Source: Sedimenticola thiotaurini
GTDB taxonomy: Bacteria; Pseudomonadota; Gammaproteobacteria; Chromatiales; Chromatiaceae
NCBI RefSeq assembly: GCF_001007875.1
Contig: NZ_CP011412.1
Span: 1,860,001 to 1,924,000 of the forward strand
DNA: 64,000 nucleotides
Direction of reading: 5' to 3'
Shown here piece by piece: positions 50,952-61,144 of the stretch; position 1 is the first letter of the stretch, and each line of letters begins with the position of its first letter. The notes under the pieces are model-generated. The model was not told the origin of the DNA. It made no database searches and was given only the letters and a program-made list of their open reading frames with translations. A program made the position numbers and the translations under genes.

Positions 50952-51743
50952 TTAATAGTCGGTGATTACCACGTCTTTCAGCCGCTTGCCCCGGATGTCC
51001 TCCAGTGTGGGCATCAACTCGTAGGCCACCACGTTCTGCCCGGAGAAGCTCTTATGGGTCTTGATCCGCTCAAACCAGGCGTTCAGATTCGGCCGCTGCT
51101 CAACCAGGTCTGCTTCTCCCAACAGGGTCAACAGGTGTATGTAAGCGGTCCAGTGGATATCCGCGTAGGAGTAGTCACCGACTACAAACGTCTTGCCATC
51201 GAGTTGCGCATCAATGGCATCCAGTGGGCCGCGAAGCGCTTCCCGTGCAGCCTCCACCGCTGCTCGGTCCGTGCCATAGGCGGTATTAGCCATCGGACCG
51301 AGCACCTGTTCCTGCATCAGCAGCTCAACATGGGGTGCCACATTGGAACGGGCTATGTCGATCCAGTAGGTCTGCTCCGCCAGTCTGGCGGCATTGCGTG
51401 GGGCGAGACGATTACCCAGCCCACGACCCTCGATAAAGGTGACAATCCCCAGGTCGCCGGTCACGGTGTAGTGCGCCTCTTTCAATGCCGGAATAATGCC
51501 CAGTGGGGAGAGCTTGCGATACGCCTCACTCTTCTGCTGGGCCTCGGTAATATCCAGTACGCCACTCTCCACCTCGATACCCTTCTCCGCAGCAACCAGC
51601 AGGCACTTGAGCGTATCCGCATCGCCGGGGAACCCGAGCAACTGCATCACGTATTGGGTCTTTTTCATATCGCCGGTACTGCCGTAACGCTGATCGGAGT
51701 CCAGGTTGGTGGCGCCGGACCCGAAGGCAAATAGATCTGTCAT
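50952..51743 (-). CDS. Glutathione S-transferase-like protein (paralogue 2)
   Basis: 263-residue GST-fold protein. The N-terminal thioredoxin-like part starts after a ~25-residue extension (MQLLGFPGDADTLKCLLVAA); the helical part has VVGDYSYADIHWTAYIHLL, the usual N-capping Asp motif. The G-site Glu-Ser pair of classical GSTs is replaced (VTGDLGIVTFIEGRG), so glutathione binding is uncertain. The C-terminal tail MPTLEDIRGKRLKDVVI recurs in the two other paralogues here. The ATG at 51743 follows GGGAGG. It starts 26 bases after paralogue 1. Confidence 0.82.
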   Translation of the reverse strand: MTDLFAFGSGATNLDSDQRYGSTGDMKKTQYVMQLLGFPGDADTLKCLLVAAEKGIEVESGVLDITEAQQKSEAYRKLSPLGIIPALKEAHYTVTGDLGIVTFIEGRGLGNRLAPRNAARLAEQTYWIDIARSNVAPHVELLMQEQVLGPMANTAYGTDRAAVEAAREALRGPLDAIDAQLDGKTFVVGDYSYADIHWTAYIHLLTLLGEADLVEQRPNLNAWFERIKTHKSFSGQNVVAYELMPTLEDIRGKRLKDVVITDY

Positions 51744-51769
51744 GCTGTTATTCCTCCCGGATTCTCTAT

Positions 51770-52474
51770 TCAGGCAACCGACTTGAGCTGCTTCTGTTTG
51801 ACGTCGTCCAGTGACGGCAGACTGGCAAAGCTGTTGCGCGCCTGCATCCTTCCGTACCATGCCTTGAGATTGGAATGGGATTCGATCAGTGCTCCCTCAT
51901 CCATCAGCATGCAGAGATGGGCAATAGCGGTCCAGTAGATATCGGCAAAGGAGTAATCCCGGACGATAAAGTTTTTCCCGGCCAACTGCCTGTCCAGTAC
52001 CTCCATAGTCTCTGACAGGGTTGTGCGGGCAGCGTAGACTCGCCCGGCATCGGCACTAAAGCCGCTGCTGTTCATGGGACCACACACCTTCTCCTGCATC
52101 AGTACATTCACCGCCGGCCCCGCGATCTCCTCCGCGACCTGCACCCAGTGATTCTGCTCACCGAGGAACGCTGCTTTCTTGGGGTTCAGGGAACCACCCT
52201 GGCCACGAATGTCCAGGTAAGCCAGGACGGCTGGCGCACCGGAAGTTACGAATCCGCCCTCCTTCAGACAGGGACACTTGCCGAATGGTGAGATGGAGCG
52301 GTAGTCCTGCTGGTCGCAGGCACCATCCATCACGTCCAGCAGCTCCACATCAAGCTGTATCCCCTTCTCCGCGGCCATCAGCAGACACTGGTCGGTGTTG
52401 ATATCACCGGGAAAGCCACGCAACTGCATACGTGTTTGTCTGTTGGCCTTTTTTTTCTTTCCGAAAAAAAACAT
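51770..52474 (-). CDS. Glutathione S-transferase-like protein (paralogue 1)
   Basis: 234 residues. A basic N-terminal tag (MFFFGKKKKANRQTR) precedes MQLRGFPGDINTDQCLLMAA. The cis-proline region (SPFGKCPCLKEGG) and helical domain motif IVRDYSFADIYWTAIAHL mark the GST fold. The Glu-Ser pair is altered (VTSGAPAVLAYLDIRG). It ends LPSLDDVKQKQLKSVA, the shared tail. Clearly homologous along its length to its neighbour at 50952-51743, hence a tandem duplicate. Confidence 0.82.
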   Translation of the reverse strand: MFFFGKKKKANRQTRMQLRGFPGDINTDQCLLMAAEKGIQLDVELLDVMDGACDQQDYRSISPFGKCPCLKEGGFVTSGAPAVLAYLDIRGQGGSLNPKKAAFLGEQNHWVQVAEEIAGPAVNVLMQEKVCGPMNSSGFSADAGRVYAARTTLSETMEVLDRQLAGKNFIVRDYSFADIYWTAIAHLCMLMDEGALIESHSNLKAWYGRMQARNSFASLPSLDDVKQKQLKSVA

Positions 52475-52583
52475 TTCCTCACCTCTTTATAATCATGTGC
52501 ACAGTTCGGAGGTTGGTTACTGCATTAACCCTGACTCCGGACCTCTTTCTGTCTCTCTCTCATTATCTGATCTGTCGCTATAC

Positions 52584-52613
52584 GACGAACCCGACTTACT
52601 GGTCGGGTTCGTC
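52584..52613 (-). other. Perfect 12-bp hairpin between membrane micro-protein and GST genes
   Basis: GACGAACCCGAC / GTCGGGTTCGTC with a six-base loop, starting 12 bases after the stop codon of the small membrane protein gene. No T run on the minus strand; likely an mRNA 3'-end stabiliser or processing site inside the operon. Confidence 0.55.
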
Positions 52614-52624
52614 ACGGCACCTGT

Positions 52625-52825
52625 CTATTCCCACTTAAAGGGTTCGTCTTTTGCGATGGCAAAAAACAGCCAGACATCGGTGATCAGCAGCGTCAGGAAA
52701 GCTACTGAAGTACCCAGTGCCCAGAGTGGATCCCGGTGGTACTCCCCGACATTAAGCTCCAGCGCACCCCAGGCCACGATTGCAGTCAGTATGGCTACCG
52801 CCAGAATACCTTTGAATGAACTCAT
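52625..52825 (-). CDS. Small two-helix membrane protein
   Basis: 66 residues from ATG 52825, chosen because GAGGAGAGAGAG lies just upstream; the frame stays open further but with no signal. Two predicted helices: ILAVAILTAIVAWGALEL (about 7-24) and LWALGTSVAFLTLLITDVW (about 34-52), joined by NVGEYHRD. No family is recognised. It follows the di-iron hydroxylase by 86 bases on the same strand, so it may be a hydroxylase subunit or membrane scaffold (inference). Confidence 0.7.
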   Translation of the reverse strand: MSSFKGILAVAILTAIVAWGALELNVGEYHRDPLWALGTSVAFLTLLITDVWLFFAIAKDEPFKWE

Positions 52826-52911
52826 CTCTCTCTCCTCTTTTCTGATCTGCGGCGATGGGGCCATCCTGGCCGGCCCATGCATCCCTGCACCCTCGCCATT
52901 ACCCATTGCCG

Positions 52912-54093
52912 TTACGCAGTCTGGGCGGCGGTTGGCATATCCACCCAGCCGGCTTTACGGTTCATCCGCTCAGCAATGCGACGTTCGCCTTCACTGGCCA
53001 TCTCCTCATCCCATTTCGCCAGTTTCGGCTTGATGAATGCTTCCCACATGGGCGGCACCAACAACATGGAGAACATGGCAAAGTAACCGATGCCGGTATC
53101 TGGCGCGCCCACCTCTTCCAGTTCCCAGAAGTGGGTCTCTCCCCGATCATGGTGATCACCCTGGCGACCGATTTCGATGAAACCGAACTGGGTGAACGGT
53201 GACTCACCCACATCCCAGGAGTGGCGGTACTCGATCGGTTGACCTTTTTCACGGATCAGGCCGTAGTGCTCCAGGAAGTTCAGCACCTCAAGTTCAAAGC
53301 CTGAGATGATCCAGGTGATGGCCATGATGCCCAGGCCGGTCCAGCCACCGGCATACCAGAACATGAACACCGTTGGCAGGCTCATCATGTAACCGCGGAT
53401 CCAGCGATTCTGCGGTGAGATAAAGGGAATACCACGACGCTGCAGACGCTGCTGTTCCATCTTGAACAGGAAGCGCGACTGACCAAAGTGGGACAACAGG
53501 TAATGCTTGTAGATGTTACGTCCCCGCGGGCAGGTTGCGGGGTCATCCTCATGTGCCAGTTCCAGATGATGGTTGTAGACATGGGCATAGCAGAAGTGGG
53601 CAATCCCGCTGAGGGCCATCATCCAACGCGACAGGATAAAGGTCGGCCCCTTGGTATGGGACAGCTCATGACCGAACATGATACCCAGGCCCAGGAACAT
53701 ACCGGCGGAGATTGACGCACCAATCAGGTTGACGCCGCTGATGCCGGTCTGGATGGTAAGCCCCATCACTTCCATGGTACCGAACGGTACACCGGAAACG
53801 TACTCGTAGACTCGCCACACCAGTGACACTTGTAACAGCACAAACACCGGATACTGGGCGTACATCATGGTGTTCAGCAACCAGGGTATACCATTCAGCT
53901 CGCCATTCTCATCCACCCCAGCCGGTTCCGCATGCACCGGTAATACACTGAGCAGCCAGTCGAGAATTATCGCAGCACCAAACATGGCTACGCCGAGCCA
54001 CACCCAGGTACCGCCAGCTACGATACCGAGCATGGCGCCGATAATCAGCGCCGGCGTCATAAAGTATCTTAGATTGACGAAGAATTTTTTCAT
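52912..54093 (-). CDS. XylM/AlkB-type membrane di-iron hydroxylase with one variant ligand
   Basis: 393-residue integral membrane monooxygenase. By recall it is closer to XylM (xylene monooxygenase hydroxylase) than to AlkB: FLEHYGLIRE, HFWELEEVGAP and PPMWEAFIKPKLAKWDE have XylM counterparts. Eight of nine AlkB-type iron ligands are present: HELSH (142, 146), HVYNHH (171, 175, 176), EHYG (276) and DHH (314, 315). The ninth is Gln311 (GRQGDHH) where AlkB has RHSDHH and XylM NHINHH. At least six hydrophobic segments are visible. Paired with the upstream XylA-like reductase; it would hydroxylate or epoxidise a hydrophobic substrate. Confidence 0.85.
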   Translation of the reverse strand: MKKFFVNLRYFMTPALIIGAMLGIVAGGTWVWLGVAMFGAAIILDWLLSVLPVHAEPAGVDENGELNGIPWLLNTMMYAQYPVFVLLQVSLVWRVYEYVSGVPFGTMEVMGLTIQTGISGVNLIGASISAGMFLGLGIMFGHELSHTKGPTFILSRWMMALSGIAHFCYAHVYNHHLELAHEDDPATCPRGRNIYKHYLLSHFGQSRFLFKMEQQRLQRRGIPFISPQNRWIRGYMMSLPTVFMFWYAGGWTGLGIMAITWIISGFELEVLNFLEHYGLIREKGQPIEYRHSWDVGESPFTQFGFIEIGRQGDHHDRGETHFWELEEVGAPDTGIGYFAMFSMLLVPPMWEAFIKPKLAKWDEEMASEGERRIAERMNRKAGWVDMPTAAQTA

Positions 54094-54323
54094 TTATCCA
54101 CCTCCTCTATATTTATTGGCATCTAAAAAGTTACAAGAGGATGGCGGTCATACCTATACGTAATACCACATGATTTATTTAAAAAATTATCATTTCCGGA
54201 GAATTTCTATCATGCGGTTAATAAGCAAAGGGCATCTGTCGAAACATGGTTTCGACGGATGCCCCGATGGAGGAAAAAAATAGCGCTGTTTTGTGCTAAT
54301 AAAAATGCATCAGCGGATCTATA
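54094..54323 (-). promoter_or_regulatory. Structured control region between reductase and hydroxylase genes
   Basis: 230 bases. In minus-strand order it holds a short stem followed by T7 (54274-54280), a 16-base-pair hairpin (54230-54264), an AT-rich segment (54170-54197) and a direct repeat ATACC-N8-ATACC (54150-54167, plus-strand reading). GAGGAGG precedes the hydroxylase ATG. It looks like a terminator or attenuator plus a promoter, so hydroxylase and reductase levels can differ. Confidence 0.5.
54230..54264. terminator. Strong palindromic hairpin
   Basis: GGGCATC-T-GTCGAAAC / GTTTCGAC-G-GATGCCC, sixteen pairs counting one T-G, with a three-base loop (ATG). The minus-strand side continues TTTGCTTATT, a weak U-tract. 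The centre (GAAACATGGTTTC) also resembles the palindromic boxes bound by StyR/TodT-type regulators. Confidence 0.55.
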
Positions 54324-55427
54324 TCAGGCACGCCCACCCGGCATACTGCTGGCGTCAAGGAATTTGTCGAAATAGATATTGGATTCATCAACACCTTGTT
54401 GCTTGAGCACCTCTATGGCCGCATCAATCATTGGCGGCGGCCCACATAGGTAGGCCTGGGTGTTGACCCAGTCGAGGGACTGACTGGCAACCTCATCAGT
54501 CACCATCCCGCGCAAGCCGGTCCAGTCACTATGCTCGGGCTCTTCGGACAGCACCGGCAGGAAACGCAAACTGCCACTGCCGTTGCGCGCCGCCTCCAGT
54601 GCCTTCAGTTCGTCCAGACAGTAGAGATCCTGCTGGGTTCGGGCACCGAACAGATAGACGGTCTCACGTTGGCTACCACTGTTGTTGGCCTGTTCCAGCA
54701 GGGCCATGATCGAACTCATGCCGCTACCACCGGCAATGCAGATAACCGGTCCTTCACCCTCCCGCATCCAGAATGAACCGTACGGCCCCTCCACCGTGAC
54801 CCGGCTTCCCACCCGGTTCTCGGCGAACAGCCAGCCGGTTAACTCACCGTTGGGGACTTTACGAACAAAGAAGGTGAGTTCATTCTCCCGCTCATTCTCC
54901 GGTGCCCGGGCAAATGAGTAAGATCGGGGTTTTTCAATGCCCGGAAAGGAGATATCGGCGTACTGGCCGGCCCGGTAACCATATCCATCACCACCGGGCT
55001 CGGCAGCATGTGGAAACGGCCCGTCGAGCTTGATGGTCAACTCCATAATGTCATGGGTAAGCAGACGTGTACCTGCCAGCACACCCGTAACCGATGAGAC
55101 TGCGCCCCCGGCATCCTGATTGGAGGCCAGCGCCACCTCCACAATCACATCACTTTTGAGCTGCGTCTGACAGGCCAGGATCATCCCTTCCCTGAGTTGA
55201 TCCCCATCCAGGACATAGGAGAAATCAGACAGCTCCTTGATTTTGCCCTGTTTCAGCTGGCAGCGGCAGGAGCCGCAACTTCCGACCCGGCAATCATGGG
55301 GCCAGTTCAGGCCGGCGGCCAATGCCGCTTTGAGGAGATTATCTCCCGCCTTGATCTGTACCCTTTCTCCAGCCGGGAGAACCTCCGCCGTGAAGTCCTG
55401 CTGCTTCTTTTTCAGAAAACCAAACAT
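54324..55427 (-). CDS. XylA-like NADH:ferredoxin reductase, electron donor of the hydroxylase
   Basis: 367 residues. The N-terminal plant-type [2Fe-2S] domain has ligands Cys46, Cys51, Cys54 and Cys86 (CRVGSCGSC and ILACQ). The FAD-binding domain has RSYSFARAPENE and the NAD-binding domain ICIAGGSGMSSIMALLEQ plus AYLCGPPPMIDAAIEVL. The same ferredoxin-first layout is found in XylA of xylene monooxygenase and CymAb, which feed XylM-type hydroxylases; classic AlkB uses rubredoxin instead. The ATG at 55427 is chosen over an in-frame TTG. It is 53 bases after GST-like paralogue 3. Confidence 0.92.
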   Translation of the reverse strand: MFGFLKKKQQDFTAEVLPAGERVQIKAGDNLLKAALAAGLNWPHDCRVGSCGSCRCQLKQGKIKELSDFSYVLDGDQLREGMILACQTQLKSDVIVEVALASNQDAGGAVSSVTGVLAGTRLLTHDIMELTIKLDGPFPHAAEPGGDGYGYRAGQYADISFPGIEKPRSYSFARAPENERENELTFFVRKVPNGELTGWLFAENRVGSRVTVEGPYGSFWMREGEGPVICIAGGSGMSSIMALLEQANNSGSQRETVYLFGARTQQDLYCLDELKALEAARNGSGSLRFLPVLSEEPEHSDWTGLRGMVTDEVASQSLDWVNTQAYLCGPPPMIDAAIEVLKQQGVDESNIYFDKFLDASSMPGGRA

Positions 55428-55480
55428 GATTACCAACCACCACTCAGAGTTGCGTTAAAACCGCACTATTCCAGTCACAT

Positions 55481-56158
55481 TCAGACATTGATGGTGACGG
55501 ATTTCAGCCGATTATTTTTAATCTCATCCATACTGGGCAGAATAGTGGAAGCGATGAAGTTCTCCTTACTGGTACTCTTGTGCGCCTTGATTTTTTCCCA
55601 CCAGGTCAACACCGCCTCTCGTGATTGGATCAGATCCCCATGGCCGGTGATCATGCAGGCATGCACATAGGGCGCCCAGTGCAGATCCGCCATGGAAAAC
55701 TCGCCAACCAGGAAGTCGCCACGATGCTTCTTGCTCTTCAGGGTATTCTCCATTACATCGAATGCCGCATTCAGAGTGGCTACCGCATCATCGACACCTT
55801 CGTTGGTCAGCAGTTGGTTAACCGCCGGCGCCACCGTTTCGTTGGCAATATGGATACATTGATAATGCAGCGCCCGCACCACACCATTACGCGGCACCAG
55901 TGAGGGGCCAAATCCTTTGTCGTCCAGGTAGGACATGATGGCCGGTGTACCGCACAGGGTAAAGTCCACATCGCGCAGACAGGGGATGGTGCCAAAGGGA
56001 GACATGCTGCTGATCTCCTGGGTGGCAGTGTCGCTTACTGCGATACTGTCAATATCCACACCTTTCTCACCCGCCGCCATCAGACACTTCAAGGTATCGG
56101 GGTCAGAAGGAACACCATACAGTTTCATTTTGCTACTCAGATGATCGCCTACAGACAT
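55481..56158 (-). CDS. Glutathione S-transferase-like protein (paralogue 3)
   Basis: 225 residues from ATG 56158, behind GGAGGATTGAGT. N-terminal KLYGVPSDPDTLKCLMAAGE and cis-Pro region SPFGTIPCLRDVD; helical part LVGEFSMADLHWAPYVHAC. The classical Glu-Ser pair reads Cys-Gly (LCGTPAIMSYLDDKG). It ends LPSMDEIKNNRLKSVTI, the tail common to all three. It sits on the reductase side of the cluster while the other two lie beyond the hydroxylase. Confidence 0.82.
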   Translation of the reverse strand: MSVGDHLSSKMKLYGVPSDPDTLKCLMAAGEKGVDIDSIAVSDTATQEISSMSPFGTIPCLRDVDFTLCGTPAIMSYLDDKGFGPSLVPRNGVVRALHYQCIHIANETVAPAVNQLLTNEGVDDAVATLNAAFDVMENTLKSKKHRGDFLVGEFSMADLHWAPYVHACMITGHGDLIQSREAVLTWWEKIKAHKSTSKENFIASTILPSMDEIKNNRLKSVTINV

Positions 56159-56448: not shown

Positions 56449-56817
56449 TCAGACGTGTACGATCTCGCCTTTCAGCGAGTAGAGAATAGCCAGCACCTCA
56501 TCCTTCTCCTGCTGACCAGCATCATTTTTAGTCATGGCATCCAGCACATCATCAATAACCGAGTTAAACTCCTGATCATTGATATTCATGCCACGGTGCG
56601 CGCTCAACATATCCCGGCCGGTATAGGTCTCAGGTCCACCGGTGCCGGCGCAGAACATCTCCCGCACCAGTCGTTTGACGTTCTCCGGATCGGAGTCGAT
56701 ATAACGCTGCTTAACTACCGGATTGCTGGTGTGGTTGGCCCAGATATCCTCCACAATGGCGGCGATTCCGCTCTGGCCGCCAAGACGTTCGTACAGGCTT
56801 GCTTGAGTATTTGACAT
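56449..56817 (-). CDS. Group 1 truncated haemoglobin
   Basis: 122 residues, standard for trHbN. Seen: LYERLGGQSGIAAIVEDIWA, the CD/E region VKRLVREMFCAGTGGPETYT, and the proximal His (H74) in MLSAHRGMNINDQEF. Group 1 globins bind O2 and detoxify NO or deliver oxygen. At the head of the hydroxylase gene series it could supply O2 to, or protect, the di-iron enzyme (inference). A GGGAGGAG ribosome site precedes the ATG. Confidence 0.92.
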   Translation of the reverse strand: MSNTQASLYERLGGQSGIAAIVEDIWANHTSNPVVKQRYIDSDPENVKRLVREMFCAGTGGPETYTGRDMLSAHRGMNINDQEFNSVIDDVLDAMTKNDAGQQEKDEVLAILYSLKGEIVHV

Positions 56818-57263: not shown

Positions 57264-57911
57264 TCAATTTCCCGCACCAGGGGGGGATACGAACTCCTCA
57301 TCAGACTCCGCAAGGAGCGCTATTCGCACCACGTCCGACAGGGAATTTGCCTCGAACTTTGCCATGATGCTGGAACGATGTAATTCCACGGTACGAAAAC
57401 TGATAAACAGCTCTTCCGCAATCTGCTTGTTGCGTTTGCCCGCCACCAGCCCTTCCATCACCTCACGCTCACGGCGCGTCAGGCGCGCCAGACGTTCGGC
57501 CGCCTGTTTACGCCATTCGATGGTGCGTCGTCGCTTGGCTTCGCCGCTCAGACACTGGTGAATACGCGCCAGCAGTTCTTCACCGTCAAACGGTTTTTCG
57601 ACAAAGTCGCTGGCACCCCCTTTCATAGCCCTGACCGCCGTGGGCACATCGGCATGCCCGGTGAGCACAATTACCGGTATTTCAAAGTCCCGTTCTCGCA
57701 GGGCTTCCTGCAACTCCAACCCGCTCATATCCGGCATACAGACATCCAGTAGCAGGCAGCCCGGTCCGATTCGATCAAGCGAATCCAGAAACGCCTGGCC
57801 GGTTGCAAAGCTTTCGGACCTGATGCCGTCCGACTTGGTAAGAAAGCGCAGCGCCTTACGCACCGGCTCTTCGTCATCAACGATATAAACAGTCTGTTCA
57901 ACCGATTGCAT
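57264..57911 (-). CDS. FixJ/TodT-family response regulator
   Basis: 215 residues from ATG 57911. The receiver domain has VYIVDDEEPVRKALRF, the phosphoacceptor in LLLDVCMPDMSGLEL and VEKPFDGEELLARI; a LuxR-type HTH follows (LTRREREVMEGLVAGKRNKQ, LFISFRTVELHRSSIMAKF). The start overlaps the kinase stop by 14 bases, implying coupled translation. Relatives (StyR, TodT, FixJ) activate aromatic degradation or respiration genes. The hydroxylase cluster is the obvious target (inference). Confidence 0.91.
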   Translation of the reverse strand: MQSVEQTVYIVDDEEPVRKALRFLTKSDGIRSESFATGQAFLDSLDRIGPGCLLLDVCMPDMSGLELQEALRERDFEIPVIVLTGHADVPTAVRAMKGGASDFVEKPFDGEELLARIHQCLSGEAKRRRTIEWRKQAAERLARLTRREREVMEGLVAGKRNKQIAEELFISFRTVELHRSSIMAKFEANSLSDVVRIALLAESDEEFVSPPGAGN

Positions 57912-59943
57912 GGTCTGAATCACTACCCCCCGTCGGTAAAGTAAAACTGAAGGTGGCACCGCCCTGCTTGTTCGATCGGGCCGACAGGCAGCCACCGTGG
58001 GCGTCAATAATGGAACGGGAGATCACGAGCCCCATGCCCATGCCATCAGATTTAGTGGTAAAAAAGGGCTCGAATATCTGCTTCAGATTCTCCTCTGTAA
58101 TACCACTACCGGTATCAATCACCTCAACTAAAAGTTTGTCTGCTTGCGGCTGTGAAGTGCGTATGGTTAAACGACGCCGCTCTTTCTCGGTGTGGTGCAT
58201 CGCCTCTATACCGTTACGTACCAGATTCAGCACCACTTGCTCGATCAGTATCCGGTCACCACAGGTAGCGGACAGGGGCTCCGATAGTTGCAGACTGACC
58301 GGTAACTGGTTCCAGCGCGCCTCCACCTCCACCAGGTTTACAACTGTTCGTACCAGTTCATTCAGTTCAATAGGTGCATAACGCATCTCCTCATTACGCA
58401 CGAAGTTACGCAGGCGAACCACAATCTCCCGGGCGCGGTTGGCCTGTTGGTTGATATCGGTAAGTGACTCCAGTATCTCTTCCCGGTCACCGGTTCCGGC
58501 ACGCAACATCTTTACACAACCGGTGCTCAAGCCGGCAATCGCAGTCAGGGGCTGGGCCAGTTCATGGGCGATCTGACTACTCATTTCACCAATGGTGGTT
58601 ACCCGGGACACATGGGCCAGTTCCACCATGTGTTTCTTTTCACGCTCCTCCACCTGCTTCCGTTCCGTAATATCAGTAAACACCCCCAGGCAACCCACAT
58701 ATTGGTTGTCGGTATCAAAGATCCGTTTCGGTGAGGTGAGGGTATAAATCTTCTCCCCCTGCTTGGTGACCCAGGCGGTTTCATAGCGCTGTACGCCGCT
58801 GATCCGAACCGGCTTGGACATGCGTTGACGCATGATGTCGTAGTCATCCTGATGAACAAAATTGAGCAGGTTTTTACCAATCACCTCGTCACTTGAATAA
58901 CCGAACATGTCACAGAAGCTCTCGTTGACATAGGTAATAAAATGCTGCTCATCGGTCAGGGCCAACGCCTCGCTCATGGTCTGTACCAGCTCCCGGTAAC
59001 GCCGCTCGCTGATTCGCAAGGCCTCCTCCGCCTCACGCCGCTCCTGCTCGGCCCGTACCCGTCCGCTCACATCCTGAAGAATCACTGTGGCACCCAGTTG
59101 GCCGGAACGGTCTACCAGGGAAGAGGCCATCACTTCGATAAAACAGACCGTGCCCACACTGCTGCTGATGTCGAACACTTTTGGCCGCCGCATCCGGGTC
59201 GGTGCCACACATTGGGCGATCATGTTGCGCAGCTTCTCCCGATCCGGCTCCGGGAAAAAATCAAACAGTGAGGTTCCCAATGCCTCCCGTTCGGTCAGCC
59301 GGAGGATCTGGCTTGCCCGTCGGTTGAGGCCCAAAACCGCGCCCTGGATATCAACATTGAGCACACCAATCGGGGCATGATCCAGCAGTCGATCGAGATA
59401 GTGGGTGACCTGAGGCCGTTCCCGCTGCACGTCGCCCAGGCGTTTTTGCGCCGCGGCAATCGAACCACGGTAGGCACGACGCTTTTGCGTCCGGATCACC
59501 GTCTCTATCAGTATGCCAGGCAACTTCCCCAGTTCCCCGGTGGACCAGGGCACCACATGATTACCAAGAAAAGGGGCAAACTTGAGCGCCTGCCGGAGCT
59601 GTTCGTAGCGCGCCGGTTCCGTCAGTATCAACAGGGGGATATCCCTGCCCATGGAGTGGATGCGCTGCGCGATACGTACCGGCTCTTTCAACTGTACGCC
59701 GAGCAGCATGGCATCGACCTGATAATTCATCTGCTCCAGTTCAACGAACAACTGGCCGGCGCTGGCCATGTCATCGAAGCAGAGCTGTTCACCACCCTTG
59801 TCGGATAACAGATGCCTCACGTTGAGGTCGACGTTCAGCAAAATGACACGACCGGCGCCGGACATCGACACAGCGGGATCGACCGCCTCTGCACCAGTTG
59901 ACTGGACTGACGAAAGCTTTCCGGTTGGGTTTTTCCCTGTCAC
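57898..59943 (-). CDS. PAS-domain sensor histidine kinase (FixL/TodS-like)
   Basis: 681 residues from GTG 59943, two bases after the acyl-CoA dehydrogenase stop codon and behind GGGAG; a longer in-frame start at 59994 would overlap that gene. No membrane helix. Order: degenerate receiver-like domain (RVILLNVDLNVRHL, DAMLLGVQLKEP, IPLLILTEPARYEQL; about 30-150), PAS 1 (HAPIGVLNVDIQGAVLGLNR), PAS 2 (DEQHFITYVNESFCDMFGYS), HisKA with His460 (IAHELAQPLTAIAG) and HATPase_c (GSGITEENLKQIFEPFFTTK). A soluble sensor of a small molecule or redox state is inferred. Confidence 0.9.
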   Translation of the reverse strand: MTGKNPTGKLSSVQSTGAEAVDPAVSMSGAGRVILLNVDLNVRHLLSDKGGEQLCFDDMASAGQLFVELEQMNYQVDAMLLGVQLKEPVRIAQRIHSMGRDIPLLILTEPARYEQLRQALKFAPFLGNHVVPWSTGELGKLPGILIETVIRTQKRRAYRGSIAAAQKRLGDVQRERPQVTHYLDRLLDHAPIGVLNVDIQGAVLGLNRRASQILRLTEREALGTSLFDFFPEPDREKLRNMIAQCVAPTRMRRPKVFDISSSVGTVCFIEVMASSLVDRSGQLGATVILQDVSGRVRAEQERREAEEALRISERRYRELVQTMSEALALTDEQHFITYVNESFCDMFGYSSDEVIGKNLLNFVHQDDYDIMRQRMSKPVRISGVQRYETAWVTKQGEKIYTLTSPKRIFDTDNQYVGCLGVFTDITERKQVEEREKKHMVELAHVSRVTTIGEMSSQIAHELAQPLTAIAGLSTGCVKMLRAGTGDREEILESLTDINQQANRAREIVVRLRNFVRNEEMRYAPIELNELVRTVVNLVEVEARWNQLPVSLQLSEPLSATCGDRILIEQVVLNLVRNGIEAMHHTEKERRRLTIRTSQPQADKLLVEVIDTGSGITEENLKQIFEPFFTTKSDGMGMGLVISRSIIDAHGGCLSARSNKQGGATFSFTLPTGGSDSDHAIG

Positions 59944-59944
59944 A

Positions 59945-61144
59945 TCAGGCTCCCAGTATCGGTCGACCCAGCAACGTACGCCCGGTCCATACACGCAACA
60001 GGTCGGTGGTTGGTGCCATCACATGGGCGGCGCGGGCATCGCGCAGCAGCTGATGCAACTTGGATCCCTCCCGATAGGCCATGCCACCGGTCAGGGTCAT
60101 CACTTCATTGACCATTTCAACCGCGCATTCGGCCACCTCAGCTTTGGTGGTGAACACCGCCGGCAGGGCGTCCGGATCACCGGCATCAAAACTGGCCGCG
60201 GCGTGATAGGCCAGTCGCCGGGTGCGTTCCAGCATGCCCCACAAAGTCCCCAGGCGATGTTGCAGGACCGGCAACTCCGCCAGGCTGGAACCACTTTCTG
60301 AATAGTGCCGTTTGATCAGGTGATTGCGCGCTATCTCCAGCGCGGCACTGGCGATTCCCAGGTAGGTACCGGACATGGCCATCAGGAAATAGGGCGCCAC
60401 CACCTGGAACACATACCAGATCTGATCGCCCTCTTCCCCCAGCAGGTCATTGCGGGGCACCATCACCTGATCCAGATGCAGCGCCCGGGACGAGTTTCCA
60501 CGCATGCCCAACCCGTCCCAGGGCGGCCCCCAACGGAGGCCCTCCGCATGATTACGGATCACAATGCAGGAGAACTGCCCGGTGGGGGCGTCCGGATCAG
60601 CCGCCACGGTGGAAATCACATAGGAGTCCGCATAGGCTGCGTTGGTAACGAAGGTCTTCTTGCCCGTCACCCGATAAAAATCCGGCGACACCGCTTCAAG
60701 TTTGGTATTGGGGATATAAAAGTGGGAGCCGGTGCCGGCCTCACTCAACGACAAAGTGGTGAGATGCCGTCCCTCGATAATCGGCAGCAGGTAACGCTCC
60801 CGTTGATCGGGGGTCGCCTTGGCCGACAACACCGCCGATCCCACGCAGTGCATACCGAAACACATGGCTGTGGAGGCACACGCCTGACCCAGGATTTCAC
60901 AGACCTGGGCGACGCCGAACGATCCCTGGCCCAGACCACCCAGCTCCTGGGGTACCGTCAGCCCGCCGAGGCCGGCATCCAGTAAAGCGCGAACACCCGA
61001 TTCCGGCCAACGCCCTTCCTGATCAACAGCCGACGCATTCGGCGCCACCACATCTTTTGCAATCTCCTGCACCCGTTCCAGGATCGATTCCAGATCCTGA
61101 GGATATCCGAACTCCGTTCCTGACCTGCTGTGATTGGAAAGCAT
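59945..61144 (-). CDS. Acyl-CoA dehydrogenase family protein
   Basis: 399-residue flavoprotein of the ACAD superfamily. Seen: N-terminal helical domain, LSLSEAGTGSHFYIPNTKLE and TNAAYADSYVIST (flavin and substrate site), and the catalytic-base position in GGMAYREGSKLHQLLRDARA, where Glu is retained. It oxidises an acyl-CoA at the alpha-beta bond; the substrate is unknown. Its stop is two bases before the kinase start, so enzyme and sensor are coupled. A GGAGATGG ribosome site precedes the ATG. Confidence 0.92.
   Translation of the reverse strand: MLSNHSRSGTEFGYPQDLESILERVQEIAKDVVAPNASAVDQEGRWPESGVRALLDAGLGGLTVPQELGGLGQGSFGVAQVCEILGQACASTAMCFGMHCVGSAVLSAKATPDQRERYLLPIIEGRHLTTLSLSEAGTGSHFYIPNTKLEAVSPDFYRVTGKKTFVTNAAYADSYVISTVAADPDAPTGQFSCIVIRNHAEGLRWGPPWDGLGMRGNSSRALHLDQVMVPRNDLLGEEGDQIWYVFQVVAPYFLMAMSGTYLGIASAALEIARNHLIKRHYSESGSSLAELPVLQHRLGTLWGMLERTRRLAYHAAASFDAGDPDALPAVFTTKAEVAECAVEMVNEVMTLTGGMAYREGSKLHQLLRDARAAHVMAPTTDLLRVWTGRTLLGRPILGA

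Follow-up and report, generated by a model that had tools for sequence, protein, structure and literature searches.

Isoprene degradation offers a precedent for a glutathione S-transferase (GST) family gene beside a monooxygenase, that of IsoI, the oxygenase there being of a different kind from the one considered here. DmoA, a dimethyl sulfide (DMS) monooxygenase, is a flavin-dependent, luciferase-like enzyme. DMS is a major marine sulfur gas, and according to a 2019 study, the first enzyme of its degradation was missing in Methylophaga and might be a monooxygenase (PMC6548844). The GST-fold protein FzlA does not bind glutathione, lacks the catalytic residues, and has a C terminus that is required for division (PMC5760450). 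Here, we describe three GST-like proteins (GST1, GST2, and GST3) encoded around a membrane hydroxylase and a reductase in Sedimenticola thiotaurini, within a 64,000-nucleotide stretch of contig NZ_CP011412.1 (positions 1,860,001 to 1,924,000; the whole of this stretch is called the window, and coordinates refer to it unless stated otherwise). The genome around the window consists of two contigs that add up to 3,962,284 bases, with 3,928,944 in the larger one. The published description of strain SIP-G1, a salt-marsh sulfur oxidizer with 3,928,944 plus 33,340 bases, singles out an alkane-1-monooxygenase gene as distinguishing but leaves the GST-like genes unmentioned (PMC4472907). Our favored reading, held at a little under even confidence, is that the three are GST-fold accessory proteins, most likely no longer using glutathione catalytically, of a XylMA-type membrane monooxygenase acting on DMS or a similar methyl thioether.

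All three genes lie on the minus strand: GST1 at 50952 to 51743 (263 amino acids, with a conserved N-terminal extension and a C-terminal tail), GST2 at 51770 to 52474 (234 amino acids, with the N terminus MFFFGKKKK, hydrophobic and then basic), and GST3 at 55481 to 56158 (225 amino acids). An earlier note on this DNA had proposed these open reading frames (ORFs) as diverged relatives with an altered glutathione site and a shared tail, and most of that description is borne out. The ORFs are real, each product matches at least one GST Pfam model above the cutoff (the C-domain matches of GST3 fall just under theirs), and, taken with the fold matches of GST3 and GST1, this places them in the GST superfamily, which is defined by GST_N and GST_C domains with a thioredoxin-like plus an all-helical fold. 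We collected 46 relatives as the family set and built a tree on the first 36 together with 16 other GST rows. The GST1/GST2/GST3 family forms one clade (support, 100/99) separate from the 16 other rows, so the three are not scattered over unrelated classes, and both of the only two phi-class rows in the tree fall outside it. Within the clade, GST1 (98/95), GST2 (99/95), and GST3 (90/90) each form a subclade. The likeness exceeds chance. When the A1 profile was run on the fetched loci, full-length family ORFs scored at least 182 bits and the best ordinary GST scored 41 bits; the interval between held ORF fragments, the truncated GST2s of two genomes, G238 and G378 (61 to 67 bits), and one odd ORF of a third, G555.

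Alignment counts compare the 46 members with 14 outgroup GSTs, the two phi-class rows having been used in the tree only; four further GST-like loci were left unused as outgroups (L004, 124 amino acids and glutaredoxin-like by eye, and L007, L019, and L021). The Glu-Ser pair of the glutathione site is replaced in all three, as the note had said, reading GD, GA, and GT in GST1, GST2, and GST3, and across the family the Glu position is occupied by Gly in 44 members and Ser in 2, compared with Glu in 12, Gln in 1, and Asp in 1 of the outgroup GSTs. Thr stands at the Ser position of the pair in 15 of 20 GST3s. The motif GxPxDxxTxxCL occurs in all three window proteins (GFPGDADTLKCL, GFPGDINTDQCL, and GVPSDPDTLKCL), its Asp not being family-wide. 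Where phi-class GSTs carry their catalytic Ser, 28 members, including all three window proteins, have Asp, 15 have Cys (13 of them GST3s), 2 have His, and 1 has Asn; Asp is also found in this column in 2 of the 14 outgroup GSTs. The cis-Pro is retained in 44 of the 46, the exceptions being the GST2s of G238 and G378, which do not have that stretch. The family as a whole does not show the Glu, Gln, or Asp followed by Ser, Thr, or Gly expected of a catalytic GST at the gamma-glutamyl site, and the three window proteins have Asp in place of the expected Ser, Tyr, or Cys near the N terminus of helix 1. Judged by sequence, the GST-like set is a distinct, probably glutathione-independent family attached to a distinct oxygenase. 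Membership in named groups was also tried and rejected: the FzlA model NF050814 of NCBIfam gave 47.7, 35.2, and 38.9 bits (cutoff, 300), and SspA and maleylacetoacetate isomerase models likewise scored under their cutoffs. Truncated GST2 homologs of this kind, about 184 amino acids long, lie in L097 (9184 to 9738, minus strand) and L101 (9031 to 9582, minus strand); they have neither the tail motif nor the cis-Pro/alpha-2 region, yet are retained beside GST1. The odd ORF of G555 (L095, 11691 to 12227, minus strand; 178 amino acids) matches both the hydroxylase N terminus and a GST-family profile and could have arisen by a deletion fusion or as an artifact of assembly.

The C-terminal tails of GST1, GST2, and GST3 read MPTLEDIRGKRLKDV, LPSLDDVKQKQLKSV, and LPSMDEIKNNRLKSV. 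The LPS-type pattern that the note had read in them is shared, except that GST1 has MPT instead of LPS, and a tail pattern fitted to the family was found in 43 of 46 members and in none of the 14 other GSTs, a set that does not include every GST class. From the last shared Trp to the C terminus there are 39 to 42 residues in GST1 and GST3, 27 to 35 in GST2, and 21 in the two truncated GST2s, compared with 15 to 26 in 13 of the outgroup GSTs and 37 in the remaining one. Identity between paralog groups is 34 to 39% in the tail and 31 to 35% in the body, barely higher, and we therefore rejected the tail as the best-conserved region; it is diagnostic by its presence and not by its identity. AlphaFold models, which cover GST3 and GST1, have mean predicted local distance difference test (pLDDT) values of 91 and 90, respectively. 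In both, the tail averages 87 to 97 per ten residues, with the final 3 to 5 residues at 62 to 77, and residues 15 to 29 of GST1, in the N-terminal extension, fall below 50. The best fold matches of both models are ordinary GSTs and FzlA, with VIA Z scores of about 21 to 24 and many ties.

The hydroxylase gene (52912 to 54093, minus strand) encodes an AlkB/XylM superfamily protein, assigned from Pfam, alignment, and tree, that belongs to a subfamily with GRQGDHHDRGETHFW. PF00487 matched at 90 bits, the HELSH, HVYNHH, and LEHYGL boxes are present, and XylM was the top-ranked named enzyme in a plasmid search (31% identity). Box 3 of the subfamily reads RQ(G/A)DHHDRGET(H/S)F in all 25 rows (residues 309 to 322 of the window protein). 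Its first His is Gln in 25 of 25 subfamily rows and His in 11 of 11 other AlkB/XylM relatives, and an extra His stands ten residues past the Gln, six past the HH pair, in 24 of the 25. We take the replaced His to be an iron ligand in AlkB. The reductase gene (54324 to 55427, minus strand) encodes an XylA/BenC-like protein, recognized from the ORF and profile matches, with 2Fe-2S ferredoxin, FAD, and NAD domains. The minus-strand order is acyl-CoA-dehydrogenase-like gene, PAS kinase gene, response regulator gene, truncated globin gene, GST3, reductase gene, hydroxylase gene, a gene for a 66-amino-acid protein, GST2, and GST1.

That the GSTs are tied to the hydroxylase, as the earlier note had it, is upheld by gene order in related genomes (G and L numbers denote genomes and loci of our collection). 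In 19 of 20 loci, GST3 and the XylA-like reductase gene share a strand, with GST3 immediately upstream, and in the remaining locus the contig ends. GST1 and GST2 accompany one hydroxylase clade (10 rows; 100/100) and lie within about 3 kb of its hydroxylase in 9 of 10 cases; in G141, two contigs end between them. The hydroxylases linked to GSTs fall in a single clade of 29 rows (96/94), which also includes extra copies from the same genomes and the hydroxylases of G542 and G586, in which no GST was demonstrated. Outside this clade fall the hydroxylases of G315 and of G440 with G032, G096, and G168, in none of which such a GST was found: G032, G096, and G168 gave no family GST at an E value of 1e-10 and none between hydroxylase and reductase, and G440 and G315 gave none at 1e-30, nor did G440 in L110, the locus of G315 covering only 4 kb around the hydroxylase. 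The 1e-30 search is imperfectly sensitive, having missed the divergent GST3 of G335. With five such genomes, a rule that the hydroxylase always needs GSTs was rejected. The 66-amino-acid protein is a small putative membrane protein (52625 to 52825, minus strand; a longer ORF reaches 52906) recognized from homologs in related loci. Many loci have such a homolog adjoining the type-a hydroxylase or following the reductase, and one also adjoins the G315 hydroxylase; no match was found in L042 to L044, L110, or L141 or in the loci with a lone extra hydroxylase copy, such as L093, L094, L099, and L100.

The substrate was approached through co-occurring genes in a sample of the order (195 genomes) and one of the class (369 genomes), which gave 10 and 13 hydroxylase-positive genomes, respectively, or 22 in all with one (G000) common to both; the record of G447 comes from contig-edge fragments. 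Formaldehyde-activating enzyme (Fae) was found in 10 of 10 hydroxylase-positive genomes of the order compared with 23 of 185 others (Fisher's test, 5e-9) and in 13 of 13 subfamily-positive genomes of the class compared with 36 of 356 others (9e-13), and in 3 of the 24 class genomes whose AlkB-type profile matches were all weaker. PF05694, the SBP56/MtoX family, occurred in 22 of 22 hydroxylase-positive genomes compared with 18 of 30 Fae-positive controls. In g4, the sister genus of the window genome, four of five hydroxylase-positive genomes have two PF05694 copies, and all five without the hydroxylase have one. The MtoX of the window genome, encoded outside the window, scored 795.3 bits with the equivalog model NF052453 (cutoff, 650); copies in other genomes were assigned by PF05694. 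It is followed by a SCO1-MauG fusion and then a TlpA-like protein, the arrangement described in PMC5739008 and PMC6548844. Of the 30 genomes carrying both, 15 have an SBP56 gene and the hydroxylase or GST3 gene on a single contig and no more than 25 kb apart, G315 and G447 being counted from contig-edge fragments; in several of the other genomes, the two are on separate draft contigs. In G335, the hydroxylase, GST3, and reductase genes are neighbors of genes for a FadL-type porin, an MtoX-family protein, SCO-MauG-like and TlpA-like proteins, and, on the opposite strand, Fhc-like proteins (the porin and the last names by eye). Methanol as the common substrate was rejected: TIGR03075 (methanol-dehydrogenase type) was found in 8 of the 22 hydroxylase-positive genomes, not including the window genome, compared with 24 of the 30 Fae-positive controls. 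What the linked genes and those that co-occur suggest is a chemistry of formaldehyde and methanethiol and not one of epoxides.

The same association holds inside one family. Among 57 presumed Methylophagaceae genomes, PF05694 was present in 10 of 11 with the hydroxylase compared with 2 of 46 others (P = 1.6e-8), and among 24 of the presumed genus Methylophaga, both are found in the same two. In a published comparison of six Methylophaga species, M. thiooxydans and M. sulfidovorans were the only two with mtoX. Both G612 and G609, presumed to be Methylophaga, have, in this order, genes for the hydroxylase, globin, GST3, reductase, 66-amino-acid protein, and a FadL-type porin (porin by eye). The two MtoX-family genes of G612 have 465 and 467 codons, an internal Met in the latter giving 427 if used as the start; since PMC6548844 gives lengths of 465 and 427 for M. 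thiooxydans and allows for an extension by 40 residues, G612 is very probably M. thiooxydans. According to the same paper, DMS strongly induces MDMS009_226, a fatty acid desaturase that is interpreted there as lipid repair, as well as MDMS009_61, an NAD(P)H flavin reductase, and MDMS009_906, a FadL-like porin. The G612 operon (L159) runs hydroxylase, globin, GST3, reductase, FadL; that is, it holds such a trio around GST3. Besides these induction data, our search of Creative Commons-licensed PMC papers returned nothing that connects DMS breakdown with GST-like proteins or with an enzyme resembling AlkB or XylM.

We propose that the system consists of the hydroxylase, the reductase, the small membrane protein, and GST3, with GST1 and GST2 added in one hydroxylase clade. 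A FadL-type porin would let the substrate in, and electrons would pass from NADH through the reductase to the membrane metal site, where a methyl group of DMS or a similar thioether would be hydroxylated to an unstable hemithioacetal that decays to formaldehyde and methanethiol; MtoX would then take over the methanethiol, and the tetrahydromethanopterin pathway the formaldehyde. The GST-like proteins probably bind each other, the reductase, and the hydroxylase at the inner membrane and may help electron delivery or hold reactive products. The position of GST3 beside the reductase and of GST1 and GST2 beside one hydroxylase clade suggests a scaffold or coupling role, and the resemblance of the GST2 N terminus to that of the reductase (MFGFLKKKQ) suggests membrane docking. 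The specialized role foreseen in the earlier note is sustained as an accessory one by the conserved linkage, with a thiol context, that of methanethiol, supplied by the gene company; the chaperone and substrate-channeling roles also named there are hypothetical. A wider proposal, which we put forward tentatively, is that the missing first DMS enzyme in Methylophaga and many marine sulfur-oxidizing Gammaproteobacteria is a membrane monooxygenase of a new kind, one whose ligand box is altered and which is served by glutathione-free GST-fold subunits.

Several observations weigh against a DMS monooxygenase with glutathione-free GST-fold partners. The five hydroxylase-bearing genomes without a detected GST imply that the GSTs are dispensable for part of the subfamily, and G128 has GST1, GST3, and the reductase, with hydroxylase, Fae, and PF05694/SBP56 not found in what is a fragmented genome. 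The Fisher values are overstated, because relatives are not independent and shared descent is ignored. The MtoX gene of the window genome, at 369 kb, is distant from the cluster, at 1.91 Mb. Larger hydrophobic substrates are what FadL-like porins are suited to, and the DMS scheme offers no role for the acyl-CoA dehydrogenase. It is not proved that MDMS009_226 is this hydroxylase, the locus tags being unconfirmed and not positional, and since PMC6548844 counts 280 transcripts highly upregulated on DMS, the induced trio would be three of many. The tetrahydrofolate-pathway enzymes reported there as upregulated on DMS would fit a methyltransferase route, and earlier work on M. thiooxydans reportedly saw no DMS monooxygenase activity and proposed a methyltransferase. 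A glutathione-synthetase match was found in 22 of 23 genomes (G128 having been added for this test and for those of TIGR03075 and PF05694, neither of which it matched), and some members could still bind a thiol, since 15 of the 46 keep Cys as the residue at the catalytic position and 15 of the 20 GST3s have Thr in place of the Ser of the pair.

These last points bear most directly on the first alternative, which is that the GST-like proteins are still enzymes whose remodeled site uses glutathione or another thiol to trap formaldehyde, methanethiol, or the hemithioacetal. The Cys (mostly in GST3s) and Thr residues, the retained cis-Pro, the synthetase matches, and the thiol and formaldehyde genes in the neighborhood all speak for it, but the almost invariant Gly at the Glu position, the Asp instead of Cys in all three window proteins, and the two GST2s without the cis-Pro region speak against it, and we regard it as unlikely. 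One 1.1-Mb genome (G233, L105) retains GST3 and the reductase with no glutathione-synthetase match found, which also runs counter to a thiol trap.

Doubtful as well, in our judgment, is a system acting on some other hydrophobic methylated substrate (an alkylaromatic, a longer thioether, or a short alkane), with the MtoX and Fae link reflecting a shared marine methylotroph lifestyle. FixJ/PAS-type regulators occur in aromatic pathways, and the regulators next to this cluster offer a parallel; XylM as the top-ranked named plasmid enzyme, the FadL/TodX-type porin (PF03349), the acyl-CoA-dehydrogenase neighbor, and the presence of PF05694 in 18 of 30 Fae-positive genomes without the hydroxylase point the same way. 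This explanation has to contend with the tracking of the hydroxylase by PF05694 inside Methylophagaceae, with the proximity of PF05694 genes to hydroxylase or GST3 genes in half of the genomes with both, and with genomes of about 1.1 Mb that carry the system.

We think it quite unlikely that the GST-like proteins act transiently as regulatory or assembly factors of the hydroxylase, in metal-site maturation or as folding chaperones, instead of as subunits. FzlA and SspA, which have the GST fold and no GST function, are among the nearest proteins by profile and fold, and the unusual box 3 of the hydroxylase also speaks for this reading, but subfamily hydroxylases with no GST found have the same box 3, and GST3 adjoins the reductase in nearly every locus. 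Canonical GSTs conjugating a hydroxylase-made epoxide, the isoprene and styrene analogy of the earlier note, are very improbable and were rejected on site loss and model scores, since despite the GST fold and the nearby monooxygenase the glutathione site is lost, the IsoI model NF049950 gave 13.5 bits for GST1 (cutoff, 300) with GST2 and GST3 unlisted at an E value of 0.1, and the genes in company are those of formaldehyde and methanethiol.

The remaining genes of the cluster lie upstream of GST3, all on the minus strand. A truncated (bacterial-type) globin gene (56449 to 56817; PF01152) is a frequent neighbor of GST3 and the reductase gene. Next come a FixJ-type response regulator gene (57264 to 58007), with an uncertain start and an overlap with the following gene, and a PAS sensor histidine kinase gene (57898 to 59994), both recognized as ORFs and placed in their families by eye. 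The acyl-CoA-dehydrogenase-fold protein (59945 to 61144), assigned from profiles, adjoins this hydroxylase in many loci (neighbors by eye) and has weak similarity, far under cutoffs, to the sulfur-compound enzymes SfnB and DszC. Elsewhere in the same genome, the MtoX locus (L139; C1:362000-379900) encodes, besides MtoX, the SCO1-MauG fusion, and the TlpA-like protein, a FadL-type porin, OsmC-like and GcvH proteins, and, by eye, a response regulator and a PAS kinase. In L091, L164, L037, and L041 (G196, G576, G141, and G128), hydroxylase or GST genes lie near genes that resemble, by eye, those of methanofuran or tetrahydromethanopterin biosynthesis. In the Methylophagaceae loci L159 (10660 to 13568, plus strand), L160, L161, L162, and L165, a MoxR/VWA-type gene pair, recognized by eye, is transcribed away from the hydroxylase and may serve in metal-site maturation.

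Overall, the gene set is a specific and testable candidate for the unidentified first DMS step in Methylophaga, and its GST-fold proteins seem to have changed from enzymes into oxygenase partners. If this is true, the genes would serve as markers for a marine sulfur-gas sink and would represent a new use of the GST fold.

Compared with described systems, the GST-like proteins and the oxygenase each have partial counterparts. By sequence, the nearest solved relatives of all three window proteins are phi-class GSTs (plant GSTF; 1aw9, 5f06, and 6f05), which are also the best Foldseek matches of GST3 (template modeling score, 0.72), but identity is 23 to 29% in Foldseek, and the window proteins differ in having Asp for the catalytic Ser, a lost Glu-Ser pair, and an extra tail. 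FzlA, the FtsZ-binding protein of Caulobacter (PDB 5nr1), shares the GST fold and is among the top VIA matches, tied with many others (Z of 22.2 and root mean square deviation [RMSD] of 2.1 over 193 residues for GST3; Z of 23.5 and RMSD of 2.0 over 209 residues for GST1). Identity in these alignments is 21 to 22%, and the GST-like set keeps company with an oxygenase gene and not with division genes. With its failure to bind glutathione and its needed C terminus, FzlA is the best precedent for how such proteins might work. IsoI belongs to a different GST family, in contrast to which the window proteins have lost the glutathione site. DmoA is alike in the reaction proposed here, DMS to methanethiol and formaldehyde, but is of the flavin-dependent type, whereas the window enzyme is of the membrane PF00487 type. 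The xylene monooxygenase XylMA of the TOL plasmid pWW0 also combines a membrane PF00487 hydroxylase with a 2Fe-2S reductase and has an outer-membrane transport protein gene nearby. At 31% identity, and on a very long tree branch, the window hydroxylase differs from it in having Gln for His in box 3, and beyond the XylMA plan the window system adds the GST-like proteins, the globin, and the 66-amino-acid protein.

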